Positions 1 through 61,650 of a DNA stretch of 64,000 bases are shown piece after piece (the first letter of the stretch is position 1; each line of letters begins with the position of its first letter). The position numbers and the translations under genes were made by a program. The stretch comes from Apostichopus japonicus (lineage: Eukaryota > Echinodermata > Holothuroidea > Aspidochirotida > Stichopodidae). A model generated the notes under the pieces. The model made no database searches. It was not told the DNA's origin and saw only the letters and a program-made list of their open reading frames with translations. Location: positions 29,669,989 through 29,733,988 of the forward strand of contig NC_092572.1 of the NCBI RefSeq assembly GCF_037975245.1, given 5' to 3'.

Positions 1-749
1 ATGTAGTAAACGCTTGTCCTTAATCGTATATAACCTGATAATCAAATTTGGAACGACTTTTAGGACATCCTTGCAGATTTTCATATTAATATTTCCAGAA
101 ACGTTCCCTATGGATTGGATATATTCATTTCCGGTTCGAGGTCATGCTCACGTTGATTGGAATTTCTGCAATATTCCTTTATCATGACAAAGTTGCTTTT
201 AAGTCTACGAAGGGCTTAATATCGACGGGACTACACGTTCTAACGTTATGGAGATAATGATGACATTTTGGTTGAATTTGTTGCTTTATACGCCACCAAA
301 CTATGGTATAAAGCAAATAGCTTTCTATGAAATGGTTCGCTGCAACATATATTTTGAGGTGGGGTGGGGTGGTGTGGGGTGTTTGGCGGGGCGGGTGGTT
401 AAGTTAACTCATTATGAACGAATATGGTCAAAACGAATTATATACCCGAATGACCCCCTTAACATGATCGACAGTTCTTTATGGGGTGGAAGGGGGGGGG
501 GGAGGGGGAGGAGTTTGTATCCACAAAATACGTATTAGAGAAGTAACCCACACGCATCAACGATATTTTATGGAGTATAATAAGCTATAACTGAATTATA
601 TTATAGTACTGTCATAGAAGCCATAACGATACCGATATGGAGTTCTCATTTATGACACCGATATATATTATTAACCCCCTGTGCATATGTCTTAGATATT
701 AACTCGAACGTGAGAAAAGACAAACCTTCGCCAATAGTGACAATTAAGT

Positions 750-757
750 TGACGTCA
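750..757. promoter_or_regulatory. Perfect CRE octamer TGACGTCA
   Basis: TGACGTCA is the palindromic full cAMP-response element bound by CREB/ATF dimers. It lies 3.8 kb upstream of the SIK start codon. SIK1 in vertebrates is a known CREB target. Confidence 0.5.
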
Positions 758-1780
758 CGAATAAAAGTGAAAATGAACTCGAATATACACAAATAATCCA
801 CGGTTATACGAAGGCGCGCCACCATATGCAAGAACCCTATTATTTTAATGACACGTCATAACACCTATAGGAAACTGTAACATATTTTAATAGTATCCTT
901 ACAACATATATATGTATTCACCAGGTCCGCCGGCACGACAGTAACCCACGTCAATGAAAAGTATTTATAGTTTTCTATATCTGGTATAGTGATGATCGTA
1001 AATTACAAAGATAGCAACTTCTCTTATGTAAGTTTTCACGAATCCAGGCCAGTCATTACGCTTTCAGTTTAGGATTCACATTTTTAAGTTTCGACAAATG
1101 AAAAGGGGGAAAAAAACACACCCCCCACCCCCAAAACAGAGACTTCAAGTTAACCACTGTCAAAAAGTAACATCACTTGTAATATCTTCGATGGCAGAGA
1201 AATGTGACCATTTTGAAACTGGTGGAAGAATACAATGGAAGAAAGAAGCATAATTCTGGATTGTAATATTTTGCAAAGGGAGGAATGGGGAAGGGGAGGG
1301 GAGGGGAGAGGAGGGGATTTACACCATATGGAAAGGGGGTTGTATAATGATGAAGAGACGTGGTTCCATCGTTGCCACGAAATTTTACTTGCAGATTAAC
1401 CTTACGACCATGCATTGTCAATAGACGAAACGACCGTCCATTGGTCTATTCCAAGCACGTGAAACTGTACACACACGCAGGTACCACAACACTACCAAAC
1501 TTTCGAGCACTCAAGAGATGTTTGTAAATAAAGGACTCGGCTAAAAAATTGTGTGTTCTGGGTTTGCGACGGTGAGATTGTGAGACTGAGGGGTCGTTGG
1601 TGCGATATATATCCGGTTACGAGGGGACAAGGAGTGGGGATTTAAATTTACAGCATAGGCATGACTCAGTACCTTAAAGTGTTAAAAACAGAAACTTGTC
1701 CCAGTACGTGTATCCGCTGACACGATTGACTGAACACGCAGGTGGTGCAATAATGATGCTGAGTGGAAAAATTATCACGG

Positions 1781-1788
1781 TGACGTCA
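1781..1788. promoter_or_regulatory. Perfect CRE octamer TGACGTCA
   Basis: A second full CRE, in the context cacggTGACGTCActtt, upstream of SIK. Function is inferred from the motif and gene identity only. Confidence 0.5.
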
Positions 1789-2640
1789 CTTTATCTTCAT
1801 GATCTTGAATAGTACAGAGAAAGTCAAGTTTTCTGTTGTCGGAAGCACGAGCTTATGCATGACGATGATTATGACATTTATCGGCAAACATCGCGTTAAC
1901 CTATTGCCTTAATTGTGTTCGCTGTGTTTCACGTGATATTAATTGCTGTAGTGCATTACAACTGTGTGAAAATTTATTCTCCTTCGTTTTCCATCTTTTT
2001 TTTTAGCAGTGTAGCCTTTATGGCTGCAGTGTAATCAGTGGTATCATTCCTTTACGGTGCAATGATAATGATATGTTATATAGGGATAAAAGAATGTATT
2101 ATGTTGAAAAGATAGTGGCATTTCATTGAACTTCAACAGAATCCCCCAGTCATCAAAAATGGATCATGATTAGATATAGATTCCACTTTGGAAGTACAAT
2201 AGGCCATTTTCACTGTTAGGTTTCACTGTGACATCTTGATTACATCAAACCTCATTTGCATGGCTTGATAACTTACTGGGATTCATCTAGTGAAGACCAG
2301 GAAATAAACATAATGTAAGTGAAGGTTGCTATTAAAGACACCAAAAAATGGCGGGGGTTCTTCGTGTGATCTATACAGAATGACTTGCTCACAGTCCTTC
2401 GCAACACAGTCACTCAGACCCTAGGTAGCGTAACTCCATAAAAGAAGTAACATTATATTAAATGGTGCTGGAGCATTAATAGATTTTCCAGGCACGAGTT
2501 GGCCTTGGTGTTCGCAAGACTCTTACAGTGAGTGAAAAATAGAAGAGACTCATTAACATAACATTTTAATATTGCTCTTCCGATACGCTTACAGTTTACT
2601 ACACAGTTTTTCAGCGCTGATTCGTTGCTATGGAACCTTT

Positions 2641-2745
2641 TGCGTCACGAACCTTTCAGGTCGCCATAGTAACTAAACTGATCAACGCGATCCACACAGG
2701 CTTGTTCAAGGACGATACTGAAATGACGTCATAGAGAGTGACGTA
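2641..2745. promoter_or_regulatory. CRE cluster: TGCGTCA, TGACGTCA and TGACGTA within 105 bases
   Basis: TGCGTCA (2641-2647), the full palindrome TGACGTCA (2724-2731) and TGACGTA (2739-2745) are packed together at the edge of a CpG-richer patch. This is the most promoter-like stretch upstream of SIK, about 1.8 kb before the coding exon. Confidence 0.5.
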
Positions 2746-3081
2746 TAGTACCCCCTGCCGAGCTGGAGTATGCCTGAGCTATTACACAAACAATGTGTAT
2801 ACGGTGTGGACATTTAACACTGGTGAAGAATGCGGTCGCAAGCGGCGAAATTACGTGGATATCTCCCAAGCGGCTGGCTCGCGAGGGGAAATTCTATCCT
2901 GTGTTGATTTTATGGAGCCCTTTTAGCCATCTCGGGTAAATGTCTGACGCTGGGAAGATACCAGGAACGAATTTGCATTCTAAAATTTTTATGTTCGTAT
3001 TGCGGGAACCACAACGAACCCCGTACCTGTGCAATCCGAAAAGCAATGCTGGATAGCTGATACTGCAAGTTAATTATTTAG
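2746..3081 (+). other. SIK: Candidate noncoding first exon of SIK
   Basis: Downstream of the CRE cluster the sequence is unusually CpG-rich (gcggtcgcaagcggcgaaat, ggctggctcgcgagggg). Two possible donors follow: ctcgg/gtaaat after 2935 and tttag/gtaagc after 3081, the second close to consensus. One would splice to the acceptor at 4507. A 62-codon frame starting at 2738 would be an upstream ORF if transcribed. Transcript data are needed to choose. Confidence 0.3.
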
Positions 3082-4425
3082 GTAAGCCGAAATCCGCTTA
3101 TTCCTTTTGTGATTAACTGTCGGTGAGACCGCCCACAAACCATGAGCTTCAATAAATAAGCTAAAATTTTGTTCTCATGTGAGCTCAGATACAAAGGATT
3201 TCCACTCTGAAATTACGGTCGGATTTTTTTTTTCATGTACAAAATATCTCGCCACCTGGTAGTATTTTGTATAACGTGAACTGGCGCGTACTGGAAATTG
3301 GCGCAGTGTAAAGATTTTCTAGTCTCTCCAAAACAAATGTACATGCGACTTACTGCAAGTTTTCACGCATTATAGCATGCAACTGGTAATTGAAAAATGT
3401 ATATATTTCAGATTTTGTGATTCAGACGTATGCAGATCAGACATCATGAATATGTTCATAGCATATGTGTCGTGTTTATTGTGCACTTATTTGACCATGG
3501 TCCCATTAAAAAATAGTACAACTAAAGCATGATCCGCTACATTTATTTTTAATATCTGTTGGACATAATTTGTACCTGTTAGGGCGATCGTCTCACCACA
3601 AACTGTGATCATGAATAATTCTGTAGTAAATAAAGTTGAGGTGCGGCAATTTCCAGTACTCATTAGATTGAATGTTAAGTCGTACAGCTAACAGTAACCC
3701 TAACAGTTAAAATGTAGTATACTATAACATCAGTGTGCCAAATAACCAACATCTTTAATTCTACAAGATGCCCGGAAATGACCGTAACTTTTACGACAAG
3801 CCGTGTCTGTGTCAGCTAAGATGCTACAGAATGCCTTCTTGGAATATTTAAAAGGTTTATTTACTGAAATATTAACGTTCCAATCATTAAGTGCGCCAAG
3901 TAACATGCCACCTAGCTATAACGTTACCATTTATCCTAGTCAGTTTGCGTGGTTGAATGGCTATGTGTCATCGTTAGCATAGCAATTTGTTGATTCGCCT
4001 TACGTCAATCGAGCGACCACAAGCCTCTGTATTTCAACCTGGTACTCTTGACGTAGGTTCGATGTACATTAAGTGAGTCAGGAATTTTTATCTTGACAGT
4101 GTGGATTCGAATTTAGCAGAATATTTCACAGCTGTTTGGTCTATGTCCTATGTGGCTATCATGCAGCTTAGGATTATCATTGATGTTAAGCCTATGTGTA
4201 TTACCACAGTGAACATATGTACTATGAACTGTGCGTACTAGAGCTGTAAAATATACTAAACCTAATGCAGGATTGGACTCCAAAGTATCTTTCTTGTGAA
4301 ATTGGATCAGATAAACCAAAGTGGATATATTATAGTTTCCACAGATTGCAGTTATTACAATTGTGTATACTAATTTTTTGTTTTTTGATATTTTGCGATC
4401 TGAGTGTACATAGTGCCCCCATTAG

Positions 4426-43000
<38,575 letters not shown>

Positions 43001-43570
43001 AAGAAACAAACAAAACGAAACAAAATAAACACAGGAAGAAGAAGAAGCAGTGGCTGGCTGGCTCAGCCTTTCATGGTTGATATAATAGCGTTATGTACCC
43101 CTTGCACTCGCGTGTGGCGTTGTTAGTTAGGGTATTCAAGTTTGTGCTAGCATCATCGCAGGGCACCATTTCGTTGTGACACCAGTTGTATTTCGTTGCT
43201 AACCTGTCGTTATCTAGGAAGGTTTATACAGAGTATCCACAGTTACTTCTGCTCATCGGCTTGTTAAAACCACGTTAGAGGCTTTGGTATGTTCTCATGA
43301 TTGTTTTGGTTTTTGTCACTTTCTTGTACTTTTAACCTAGGTTATTATGATGCAGTAATTTTTCCTCTCTGTATGTTTTGCCTTTTTGTTACTGGTTCTA
43401 GACACACCCCACAGATATTTATTCGGAAGAAGTTAAAGAGTACCTCACTATTTTGAAGTTATCACCGTGCATTGTATAAACAGTAGTAGATGAAGCAAAG
43501 CAGATATGCACAGTTGCCATAGTTACAGGATTGTAAAATCACCCACACTCCTTACATATATCAAAAAAAG

Positions 43571-43576
43571 AATAAA
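43571..43576 (+). terminator. SIK: First AATAAA after the SIK stop with an A-rich follow-up
   Basis: AATAAA lies 571 bases after the stop codon, in an A-rich context. It is the earliest reasonable polyadenylation hexamer apart from one-base variants, but SIK messages often have long 3' UTRs, so later sites may be used. Confidence 0.25.
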
Positions 43577-44835
43577 AAAAAATCATGTGCTTTGTCTGGA
43601 TGTAGATTACGTTACCAAAAACCTGTGTTACTGTCTTAAGACTGTAATACATATGCAATGCCAGGAGTCTCACCAATCATGCAAAAACCTCATTGGATGG
43701 ATTATAAGGACCCTGTTCATAGGGAAAAATTTAAAGCTTAAATTTCATGTCACAGTTTTATAGGATCTGCACTTTGTCCTCTAAAATAGCTAAGAAAACT
43801 GTGAATACATCTTCACTTTTGCCTTTCTAGCAATTTGCTGATATTGCATAGCATGTTTGCCATGCGATGACAGATCAATGTTTGGCCAGGTTCATACATA
43901 ATAGATCATTCACTGTGCTATCAGCATCATTCAAAATACTGCCAATTCCAACTGCCAGCTCAATAATGCCAGTTCAACTTCCGGTGCAATCAGTCTAAAA
44001 TGGCCAGCAAAAGATACTTTGAATAGTTTTAAAATAAGGTTTGGTTTATGGTCAAATGTAATTCCACTTATGCTTACACTTTCCTGGTTCCATCACCTTA
44101 AATCTAGCACTTCACACAATATTTCAACTGCAAAGCATCTTTTCACTAAAACAGCATTTTTCAACACACATGTTTTGTTTTCGTTTTTTTTGGTGCGTTA
44201 TGGGTGGTATGTTAGTGTAGAATCTAAGTATATTCCATTTTTAGAGTGAAGGTATATTAGCAGGGTTATGTAATTTTGACAGGTTTGAGAATACAAGAAA
44301 AAAAGAAAGTCCAAGCTTCACTATATTATGTGTGATTCAAGTTCGGTGGTATTTTGCCAAAAAAATTTACCATCTTAAAATTGACAGAAATTTATTGTGA
44401 GTACTTTTCGGGAGATTTTGACGATCGTTACTCTTGCCGGACACTGACTTTTTAAAAGTAAACAGTTTCAGTCAGGAATATTGCTTGGGGGAGGGGGAGG
44501 GGGATTGTGTGTGATAAAAAAGCTATTGAAGTTAGAAGACGAGTGACCATTTTCTGATTATCTTGCATATCTGGATTCAATGCTGGTGATCGTTGAAAAC
44601 CTTGTGGGACTAATAAAGAACTCAGCTCACAAGACACAGCTCAAAGTAGTTCAATAGTACAGTATGTCACATTATCATCAGGTGTGGGTTTCCTTGTCCA
44701 TCAAGATACTTGAATATATATAGCCCTGCTGTTCTACACAGTCCCAAGTAAGGTGGTGGAAATAGTAGAAGGAAAGATTGTTCATCATAGAGGTCTTTAA
44801 GGGAAACCTTTTATGATCAACCTCTGTGCGTAGAT

Positions 44836-44843
44836 TGACGTCA
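44836..44843. promoter_or_regulatory. Perfect CRE octamer TGACGTCA, 3' of SIK
   Basis: The context is tagatTGACGTCAagttc. It is 1.8 kb after the SIK stop codon. Motif match only. Confidence 0.3.
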
Positions 44844-51787: not shown

Positions 51788-54700
51788 CTGTAGGATAGAA
51801 TGAAGGGATAGTATAAGAGCCATAAGGGATGCTGAACACGGCATAAACACCTGGCTATTGACGATGGTAAAAAAACTGGTCGCGAACTCTACAGGGTAAA
51901 TAGGGATGGGAATATCTGAGGTCACTTATGCAAATCAAATCTCTACAAAGAATAACAAAACACCGAAATGATCTATTTTTCCTCCCAAAATGTGGATACA
52001 TTTTCAATTGTCAGTTTCGAAAATATTCAAAATACAAACTTGCGTCACCAAGGTAACTGCTGACGATGGTTAGAATCCCTTTGTAGCCGGATATTGCTTT
52101 GTCCTCTCTTACAATACAATAGGCTGCACTTGACATAATTGACTAGAAACCGGAAATTGTGCCCAACAAAACAAAACGTACATGCCTGTGTTAGATAACA
52201 AACACACCCTGACTATATTGAGAGTTTTTCTCTAGTTCTTCTTTGGGTTAAAACCTAAGAGGATTATGAAGCTGCAAATCATAAAAACCAAAGACATTGT
52301 GGGTGGTCCCCACGACACTAAGAAGGTTTGTCCATTTACGTCACTCACAAGCATGGCTTCTGTCAAATCCTCTACTTTCATTGAAATCTTTCAATCATTG
52401 TTTTTTTCTTCAAATTCCTTTAATACCTCAAGAGTACACGTTTTGTTTTCGTCTTTGGGGGCGGGGGCAGGTTAGAGGATGGAGGGGTGATATTTGTTAT
52501 TAATAAATGACCTAATTCAGATTTACTGGGAGAAAATCATATCACGTTCTTAACTCTGACATAACACCTGGTGTTTTATGAAGGTATACTGCATTGTACA
52601 TACGCACATTGTATACATTGTACGTACATTGTATGTACATTGTGTGTAGTGTTCTACTTGCTTTACAGAAAGAGAAAATAACTGACAAGTAGGACCGTCG
52701 ACTGTCTTGGGAAAAGAAAAGAAAAAACCTTTTTTTCAGCTAAGATAACATATATATGCAATCTGACTGTCTAGATGTGACAAAAGTAACTGAGCATGCA
52801 TAAATAAACATAAACAAACAAACAAACTCATGGACAGACAAACCAATCAATGAGTCTGAAGAAAACACTGCAGAAGACACTCCTCATGCATCAGTAGACC
52901 AGATATATGTGCCTCTTAAGGGGTAACTGGTGGGAGGCGTACTGGATGTGAGTGGTTAGGTGCTTCAGATTGCAAGCTAACAGCTTTGGTCAATGCTCAA
53001 ATGAGGAGAGGGAGGAAGGGGGTGGGGGAAGGGGGTGGGGGATTTGTGTGAGAGTCATGCTCACAGTGTGAATGATGAGGTTGAGGGGCAGTGGAAGAAC
53101 AGGCAAACTTGGTGAGTGTGTGGAGCAGAGTTACGGAGAGGAACTGAAATTGAAGTGGGGAAGAGATTGTTGTTAACATTTTAAACACCCCCCTCCCCCC
53201 TCCCCCACCATCTATATAGGTTCCAACATTCATCACATAATTTGACAAATTAGAGAACCAAATTTTCTTTTTTAGTTGAAAGGAATCATCACCAATGTTC
53301 TGATTAACCTTTTGCAGGTTCAAATTGGCTAAGGTCTTTCATGACTAAGTTTTGAGGTTTCCCGAGGGTCAAACATAAACAGCGAACACAGCGAAGTGAG
53401 GTATATAAAAGAGAGAAAAAAAGGGTTTCAGTTGAAATACCGTGATGGCATTAATTCTTGAAATCTGCTGTTTCCAAATGCATTAACAACCATTTCACCA
53501 AAGTTTACTCACAGCAAAGTCTTTCAAATCTGGTACCACCAACTCCGGAATCATTTCTTTGTAAATCTTGAACTTTCCTGTGAGTGAGAAATAGACCACA
53601 TGAAAATGGCAACTTTTTGCAAGTTTACCAAATACCATCCATCTTAACGATGGTATAAAAGAAGTCAATCTCTCCACAACTACCCAGTGTACAATACATA
53701 CAGCAGTATCAAACCTCTGATCTATCAAATCTACGCTATTTAGATAAGATTGCGATTGCTTGACCGAACATACCCGTCAAACTTTATTCAATCCAAAGAG
53801 AGAACTGCTGGACAGTTCCATGATCCAATGACTATTATGGACATTATTGTTATGTTAATTTCATTCACATACTGTAAATATGACCGTACAAGCATTGATC
53901 AAAATTCAAGTTTCTTTATCAACTTCTTTATGAGATTGGAAAAGAGCGACGACTAATACCCCAATCTCTGCCCTCCCTCCCCCCTCCCCACCCTTACCCC
54001 ACACTCAGTAGAGGAAAACAGAACACCAAAGGGCATCTTAATTCCTTGCCAAATTTGCAGATCCACACATCAAGTGTAGAGTGTTCCAAGTTTTACTTTT
54101 GGAGCTATTGTGATTACAACAGTTAAATCACAATTAGAGCTCTTGACATTCGACATCCACAGAAGAACAATAGGGATTCTGTACTCAATACTATAGATCC
54201 ACACACCAAGAACGGCTTTCATGCAAGCTTACTTTTGGCGTGCTTACAGGGTTTTTAGACCTCACATGACCTTCAGCCTCCAAAGTAAACCTTACAGTTC
54301 TTGCAAACACAAAATTGTCCAGATCTACATACAGTACAAGCATACATATAAGTATCAACTACATGCAAGCCACACACTGTGAGTTATAGTGTTTACAAGA
54401 CTTTTAGGCTTTGACCAATGCTGACCTCAGATGACCTCCACTATTTTCAATAGCATTCATGTACTCACTAAGAAGGATCTAAGAATGAACTTCATCCAAG
54501 CTTCACTTTGTGAGTCATCCTGGTAACAAGGTTTTCAGAATTTGACCTGTTGACCTTTGACCTCCACCAATTTCAATAGGGTTCTTGCACTCACCAAGAG
54601 GGATCTACACCCATGTATGAACTTCATCCAAGCTTCACTTTGTGAGTTATCATGGTTACAAGGTTTTCTGTTGTCTATGAATAGTACAGTACACACTGAT

Positions 54701-59846: not shown

Positions 59847-61365
59847 TAGGCCTGAGTCGGGTAGCAAAAGTCGGACCCTGGTACCTGTGATCATTACCTG
59901 GTCGGGTAAGGGGTACCCCAAACTCCAGATTGACCAAATATTGAAGAAAAAAAAATCGTGATTAAAAAAAAATGCGAAACTAGCAAAACATGTACATAAA
60001 TGGCAAATAATTTCAGTTATTCTCTGCACATGGTACATTCTGCTGAAAAATTTCTTGTGCAGAATATTTTTCTTCAATTTTAGGATAACAAATTTAAGAT
60101 GATGAAAGTAACATGAGAAATTATCAAATTTATCAAAGAAAGAAATAAGGATATGGTTCGACTGACTTCATGTCAGGAGAGTTAAGCTACTTATTATTTA
60201 CAGGAGGCAAGGGTGTATGTAAGTAGGGCTTATATAAAGAAATAAAAAGCGTTGGCAATCAACTGCTGGTGCTGGTGTAAAAAGGCAAGAATAAAGTAGA
60301 ATACAACAGGTTAATGGGAAAATATGACTGAAGATACTCCCTAAAGGATGAAACTTAGCGAGACCAAAATATAAGGTACCAAGGGCGTAGGAACCGGGGG
60401 GGCTGGGGGGGCGCTAGCCCCCCAGTGAAAAATATGGGGGGGCGGAAGTATCATTCCGCCCCCCCCCCTGCTCCGCAAGTCAGAAAACCCCTTTTTCATT
60501 TCCAAATGAGAAAAAAATCTCATTTGGAGCACCAAATTGCATTTAAGGCCAGGTGAAAATGCAAAATTCTTTACAAAATGGAGTGGGAGTTGAAGTGTGC
60601 TACTGTATATTGCACCAAATTGCATCTGAGGCCACCTGGAAATGCAAACAAATTCCAAAGGGGAGGGGGACACCCCCTCCCCTTAGACCCCTCCCCCAGG
60701 CCGGCCATCAGTCTTCAGCCCCCCCACTCAAAGGTACCTTCCTACGCCACTGTAAGGTACTGTAGCTCACCTTTTCTACCTTCCTGCCATATCCCAAACC
60801 ACAACCAAATAAGTAGGCCCTGTTTAACTAAAATTAATTATCTCCGCCACTCATACTACATCATCATTCCTAAGCTATCCTGATAATTAATCTAGTCACA
60901 GAGCTAAATTCTATCCTGCTAGAGTCATATTCTATCTTCTCCATCCTCCTAACTCATTTCAATCAGCTATTAATCAGTTCAGTAAGCCATTCTGCCCAAA
61001 AACAAAACACGGTATAAGTTTTGAAGTGGGAATGTACTGTAGCACTTATTTTATGTGCACTGTTGCAATTGATTGATGGTTGAAATTTTGAGTTTGGTGT
61101 TGAGTGATTTTATCCACACACGAAAACGAATCAAATGTTAAGAATGGGTCAAACTTGAAGTATTAAGTAATTAAAACTACTATCTACACTACAAGACAGT
61201 TATTTCATGAAATTAATCTTCCGTATTCGCGTGTCTTGGTTAATCAAAACATGCAGACCTTTGGAATTATTGAAATCATGAGAGCACTCGCGTAGTAGTT
61301 CCGTGCACTTTCGGTTAGGGTACCCGATTGTTCGGTCGGGTATCCGGGTACCCGGCTCAGGCCTA
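59847..61365. mobile_element. Possible 1.5-kb non-autonomous element bounded by inverted TAGGCCTGAG
   Basis: TAGGCCTGAGTCGGGTA (59847-59863) is met in inverse orientation at 61349-61365, whose complement reads TAGGCCTGAGCCGGGTA; both are followed inward by gggtaccc-type sequence. No open transposase lies between. It contains a nested hAT-like MITE (60380-60752). No clear target duplication was found, so it could also be two separate solo elements. Confidence 0.45.
60380..60752. mobile_element. hAT-like MITE, 373 bases, with perfect 8-base target duplication
   Basis: Flanks are TAAGGTAC at 60372-60379 and 60753-60760. The left end is CAAGGGCGTAGGAACC and the complement of the right end is CAGTGGCGTAGGAAGG. 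The interior carries long G and C runs and two related blocks around tgcaccaaattgcat and ggccacctggaaatgc. Frames inside are not genes. Confidence 0.9.
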
Positions 61366-61377
61366 CAACTAGTAAGG

Positions 61378-61650
61378 ATGTTTTCTGATGATGCCAAGTT
61401 TTATTCTACAGTCAGCTACGACAACGATAGAGCAGTCCTGCAACATGTTTACAATTTGCAACAGTGGTCTCAAGTGTGGCAGCTTTCCTTTGATATATTT
61501 ATAAATTTAATGTTATGCATTTTGGAAGGAGAATTACTAAACACCATTATTTTTTTCATGGTAATAGTGACATTAAAATACCATGTATTGCATAGCACAA
61601 GTGAAGAGAAAGACCTGGGGGTTTTATTCTCCTTCAATTTTTGCAAGTAG
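61378..61650 (+). pseudogene. Decayed non-LTR retrotransposon reverse-transcriptase fragment
   Basis: The + strand encodes MFSDDAKFYSTV at its start, the palm-domain YADD-type motif (here SDD), then LQHVYNLQQWSQVWQLSF. The matching VMHFGR motif is in another frame (near 61511), and EEKDLGV returns in the first frame near 61610. This order (ADDtKlY, LQ..L..Ws..W, vMh.G, EKDLGV) is typical of LINE reverse transcriptases such as CR1/L2/jockey. At least two frameshifts and stops show that it is dead. It is too short to name the clade. Confidence 0.8.

Follow-up and report, generated by a model that had tools for sequence, protein, structure and literature searches.

Why should a SIK kinase gene of Apostichopus japonicus be accompanied by seven perfect copies of the CRE octamer TGACGTCA? 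The initial annotation of the locus took them to suggest an ancient feedback loop between CREB and SIK, wired through many sites. Here the octamers are set against the window (i.e., the whole stretch of 64,000 nucleotides that was analysed), the rest of the genome and DNA of matched CpG content. The interpretation that we favor, with a probability of about 0.6, is more modest: the abundance of the octamer is a genome-wide property, an ordinary cluster of CREs of the CREB/CRTC type stands in what is probably the promoter of a SIK1/2-type gene, and the other octamers are mostly background.

The SIK gene and its neighbor

A SIK1 segment searched against the window gave eight matches, and the coding exons, once joined (Table 1), read through 928 residues with a stop at the end and no internal stop. 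Residues 1-647 of these 928 hold a kinase domain (Pkinase, 2.8e-77) and then a SIK UBA domain (UBA_SIK3, 5.6e-11), and a search of PDB sequences returned 22 at E up to 1e-90, the best two of them being SIK3 chains. These domains and nearest solved relatives confirm the earlier naming of the gene, which, judged from its sequence, is a SIK kinase. Over the kinase-UBA part, its identity to human sequences is 74% for SIK2, 69% for SIK1 and 66% for SIK3; we call it SIK1/2-type and apparently nearest to human SIK2, a label given by these identities. The spliced protein also carries a 10-residue peptide with the T-loop threonine, which we take to be the LKB1 site, and a C-terminal RRASDG, presumably the PKA/14-3-3 site of SIK1/2-type kinases. 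A splice-acceptor-like sequence ends at 4507, just before the ATG at 4522, so that a non-coding first exon likely lies further upstream. The SIK introns hold long minisatellite arrays, at 7728-8853 (53-base units), 32277-33038 (35-base units) and 33350-33958 (73-base units).

Exons of a SIK3-like kinase are found on the same contig, on the opposite strand (C12:29776499-29809892, minus strand). Both exons found would belong to one gene, the first coding exon of which lies about 76 kb beyond the window; the SIK1/2-type and SIK3-like genes stand tail to tail, the stop of the former being no more than about 63.5 kb away from the nearer exon found of the latter. A review (PMC10190946) places both human SIK2 and human SIK3 on chromosome 11, and by analogy the pairing seen here may be an old linkage.

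Table 1. Octamers, neighboring motifs and SIK coding exons, in window positions.
Position	Strand	Feature	Reading or basis
750..757	.	TGACGTCA (TTGACGTCAC), upstream of SIK, locally CpG-rich DNA	ACGTCA partner at 853
1781..1788	.	TGACGTCA with R..Y flanks (GTGACGTCAC), upstream of SIK, locally CpG-rich DNA	
2500..3100	+	most CpG-laden 400-bp windows upstream of SIK	probable promoter or first exon
2624..2637		weaker RFX X-box-like GTTGCTATGGAACC	
2641..2647	+	TGCGTCA	CRE-like partner of 2724
2660..2673	+	RFX X-box-like GTCGCCATAGTAAC	
2724..2731	.	TGACGTCA with R..Y flanks (ATGACGTCAT)	best candidate functional CRE
2739..2745	+	TGACGTA	CRE-like partner of 2724
4522..4704	+	SIK first coding exon, ATG at 4522	match to SIK1 segment and joined reading
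11190..11197	.	TGACGTCA (ATGACGTCAG), SIK intron, CpG-depleted DNA	background-like
14456..14572	+	SIK coding exon	
17785..17792	.	TGACGTCA (TTGACGTCAG), SIK intron	background-like
20568..20631	+	SIK coding exon	
22950..23065	+	SIK coding exon	
25675..25845	+	SIK coding exon, activation loop	
35736..35776	.	TGACGTCA at 35769 (GTGACGTCAA) with TGACGTT (35736) and TGACGCA (35745), SIK intron	weak candidate cluster
38365..38488	+	SIK coding exon	
39454..39671	+	SIK coding exon	
41207..43000	+	SIK last coding exon, includes RRASDG	
44836..44843	.	TGACGTCA (TTGACGTCAA), downstream of SIK stop, CpG-depleted DNA	background-like

The octamer in the window and in the genome

All seven octamers lie exactly where they had been reported, and their number is large or ordinary depending on what it is compared with. 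Dinucleotide shuffles contain a mean of 0.55 octamers per window and none of 100 reaches 7, whilst with one mismatch allowed the 28 CRE-like sites seen, against 18.3 expected, are equalled by 3 of 100 shuffles. The genome, however, carries 38,043 copies in 671,581,487 bases (35 contigs), i.e., one per 17.65 kb or 3.63 per 64 kb, at which rate the 7 copies seen have a Poisson P of 0.075 and the octamer density of the window is about 1.9 times that of the genome. In the first 1.85 Mb of contig C1, a reference stretch containing the first 100 octamers of that contig, at least 7 octamers occur in 9.5% of sliding 64-kb windows and in 2 of 28 non-overlapping ones. The excess over chance claimed for the locus therefore holds against shuffled DNA only. 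The accompanying baseline of about one octamer per 64 kb or less is contradicted by the genome count, and the count gives a rate below the one octamer per 9 kb that had been named as refuting the claim. Dinucleotide shuffling was dropped as a null for the octamer count, the octamer being in excess genome-wide.

This wider excess can be measured with words of identical dinucleotide content. The palindrome TGTCGACA has 5,730 genome copies, or 0.55 per 64 kb, which is precisely the shuffle expectation for TGACGTCA, and TCACGTGA has 11,680, so that TGACGTCA is 6.6-fold in excess over the first and 3.3-fold over the second. Since the 6.6-fold excess is found genome-wide, it is a property of the genome and not of SIK; a 64-kb stretch of this genome will ordinarily hold several octamers, and the window total is unremarkable because the genome carries the octamer several-fold above a matched neutral word. 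The same baseline makes a point of method, namely that the number of motifs near a gene of interest says little before it is compared with the rate in the same genome.

The bZIP palindrome has a preference for the flanks RTGACGTCAY, and octamers across this genome likewise favor A/G before and C/T after. Such R..Y flanks accompany 21,732 of the 38,043 genome octamers (57%), against an expectation of about 23-28% (the frequency of the base before TGAC or TGACG in sampled DNA, squared by hand); they also accompany 53 of 70 sampled octamers from the first 100 of C1, and 34 of the 47 sampled octamers without a repeat flag, such flags having been set by hand. The octamer excess thus resembles, for a large part, an excess of the 10-base bZIP palindrome, the difference being an octamer rate far above that of the matched neutral palindrome. 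Nothing on point was found in the literature, among the matches listed, on a genome-wide excess of either word; it deserves a separate look in its own right and, if the decamer reading is true, CRE-type control would be unusually pervasive in this animal. The octamer at C1:102441 is the center of a perfect 48-base palindrome.

Within the window only the octamers at 1781 and 2724 have R..Y flanks, 2 seen against 2.07 expected, whereas 5 lack them against 1.55 expected (P 0.02), a surplus that we cannot explain beyond chance. A strong flank contrast between window and genome, suggested by the 53 of 70 in the C1 sample, was weakened to P 0.13 once 2 of 7 was compared with the 57% of the whole genome.

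The upstream region of SIK

Three of the seven octamers (750, 1781 and 2724) precede the ATG within 3.8 kb, as first described, and they lie in DNA of a particular kind. From positions 1 to 4000 the CpG observed/expected ratio per kb is 1.17, 0.86, 0.80 and 0.96, with a dip at about 1900-2300, whilst the window median is 0.40 and most of the SIK body is at 0.2-0.6, the last SIK exon being an exception at 1.11; this mosaic would be the pattern expected of gene-body methylation. The octamer at 2724 lies where the upstream region is richest in CpG, and a candidate 5′ splice donor was read by eye near 3081. From CpG content and splice signals, the probable SIK promoter is placed at 2500-3100; no clear TATA box was seen by eye.

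One may ask whether all seven octamers are background and the upstream trio a chance clustering in CpG-richer DNA, with no role in the control of SIK. We regard this as possible but rather unlikely. The P of 0.075 for the total at the genome rate, the 9.5% of sliding windows that reach 7 and the R..Y flanks at 2 of 7 (P 0.13) are all in its favor. CpG matching speaks against it. This was done with nine fits, in which 70 octamer contexts (of 100 listed) were compared with control sets made of 40 systematic C1 controls, of 54 one-kb pieces (six blocks, other contigs) or of both, with P values that assume Poisson sites. Positions 1-4500 hold 3 octamers against 0.29-0.38 expected (bootstrap upper limits 0.40-0.57), with P 0.003-0.007, uncorrected and for a region picked after the sites had been seen. 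Outside these positions there are 4 against 1.7-2.5 expected (P 0.09-0.24); a stronger excess in CpG-poor DNA, indicated by a first estimate from 30 sites, was given up when 70 sites and 94 controls gave these latter values. Groups of three this tight are also found elsewhere, which counts against the interpretation that we favor: in the first 1.85 Mb of C1, 3 of 98 consecutive octamer triples equal the upstream trio in tightness, two of these three lying in one tandem array, and extrapolation from C1 would put their number in the whole genome in the hundreds.

Comparison with other sequences also bears on this question. Counting every TGACGT or ACGTCA, there are 8 sites in the 4.5 kb before the SIK ATG and 0-4 in each of 12 random 4.5-kb chunks, although these chunks have CpG observed/expected ratios of 0.26-0.98 and so are not CpG-matched. 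Upstream of four kinase matches the number of such sites is 6 (one a full octamer), 2, 1 and, for the SIK3-like gene, 1, the latter gene having no octamer in the 5.65 kb upstream of its ATG. The 6 sites of one control kinase, against 8 for SIK, count against the interpretation that we favor, whilst the SIK3-like contrast counts against an all-background origin. So does the company that the octamers keep: by the criterion used here, CRE-like partners lie within 105 bases of 3 of the 7 window octamers (750, 2724 and 35769, where the initial annotation had recognized partners at two sites) against 7 of 70 genome octamers (P 0.04), and two partners within that distance are found at 2 of 7 (2724 and 35769) against 4 of 70 (P 0.09).

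The cluster at 2641-2745 is accompanied by GTCGCCATAGTAAC and GTTGCTATGGAACC, both of which we take to be forms of the RFX X-box motif. X-box-like words are in excess window-wide, however (25 against a shuffle expectation of 10.2, 2.5-fold), and those beside 2724 are therefore weak evidence. Overlapping CRE/X-box words, TGCGTCACCAA(A/G)G(C/T)AAC, are present in CpG-poor DNA at 25004-25020 and 52041-52057.

CREB, CRTC and the control of SIK

As far as sequence can tell, the SIK promoter most likely has genuine CRE-type bZIP sites in the cluster at 2641-2745 and, probably, in the octamer at 1781. A CREB/CRTC-responsive nature of the cluster appears most likely because of the local clustering itself, the contrast with the SIK3-like gene, the CRTC match and the published Sik1 CRE. 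The CRTC match comes from a profile search of the genome, which gave one TORC_N match on contig C13 (E 1.2e-14, positions 2-38 of 63). As for the CRE, the review PMC10190946 describes Sik1 as driven by CREB via a highly conserved promoter CRE, and PMC6317279 has cAMP inhibiting the SIKs and thereby freeing CRTC. By extension, CREB/ATF dimers would occupy the palindrome at 2724, CRTC would join them once cAMP signalling inhibits SIK, SIK would then be transcribed, and the new SIK could re-phosphorylate CRTC and so close the feedback.

The likeness to the mammalian CREB-CRTC-SIK1 feedback, as far as PMC10190946 describes it, lies in a full CRE in promoter-like DNA of a SIK-family gene, in a kinase bearing RRASDG and in a genome with a CRTC-domain match. 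The differences are that the gene here is nearest to SIK2 by kinase-UBA identity and that, among the matches listed, it appears to be a single gene in the place of both SIK1 and SIK2. Against our interpretation stands that the gene is nearer to SIK2 than to SIK1, and that the CREB target described in vertebrates is SIK1. CREB target promoters are reported to carry several proximal CREs each, near a TATA box (PMC5740062), and CREs just upstream of the start (PMC2774331); the full CRE with half-sites nearby at 2724 resembles what these sources describe, and the lack of a clear TATA box by eye departs from the former. Among the papers listed, none bears on CREB, CRTC and SIK in sea urchin, amphioxus or lancelet. 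Should the promoter cluster prove functional, the feedback between CREB and SIK known for mammalian SIK1 would predate the duplication that gave SIK1 and SIK2. We put forward only tentatively the bolder version of this idea, in which 2641-2745 would be a working CREB/CRTC switch that predates the vertebrate SIK1/SIK2 split and was kept by SIK1, and would be one of many thousands of selected RTGACGTCAY decamers.

That most or even all of the seven octamers serve SIK as parts of an ancient loop, which is how the locus was initially understood, seems to us very improbable. This view can draw on the seven exact sites, on the two partner sites that 35769 also has, on the presence of both SIK and a CRTC match, and on a nominal excess of the total of 7 over CpG-matched expectation (P 0.005-0.026, or 0.018-0.087 at the bootstrap upper limit). 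The four octamers outside positions 1-4500, however, fit the CpG-matched background and have no R..Y flanks, and with 5 of the 7 octamers lacking these typical flanks, the claim of a loop wired through many sites is unsupported; the octamers at 11190, 17785, 35769 and 44836 are probably background.

A spread of the octamers by a transposable element or other repeat is barely credible, for although repeats or tandem arrays do contain some genome octamers, a genome search that skips very common words gave no further copy spanning any of the seven window octamers, the sole repeat found nearby is 2455-2626, and R..Y flanks persist in the octamer contexts without a repeat flag. Positions 600-3000 match themselves alone, as do the other four octamer contexts, save for 2455-2626. 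This segment ends right beside the CRE cluster and has one inverted copy on contig C16, broken into two pieces of 90% and 93% identity; it was rejected as a source of the octamer, being a short broken duplication without one. Elsewhere in the window, at 61282-61650 on the plus strand, an open frame resembles, by eye, a piece of the reverse transcriptase of a non-LTR retrotransposon.
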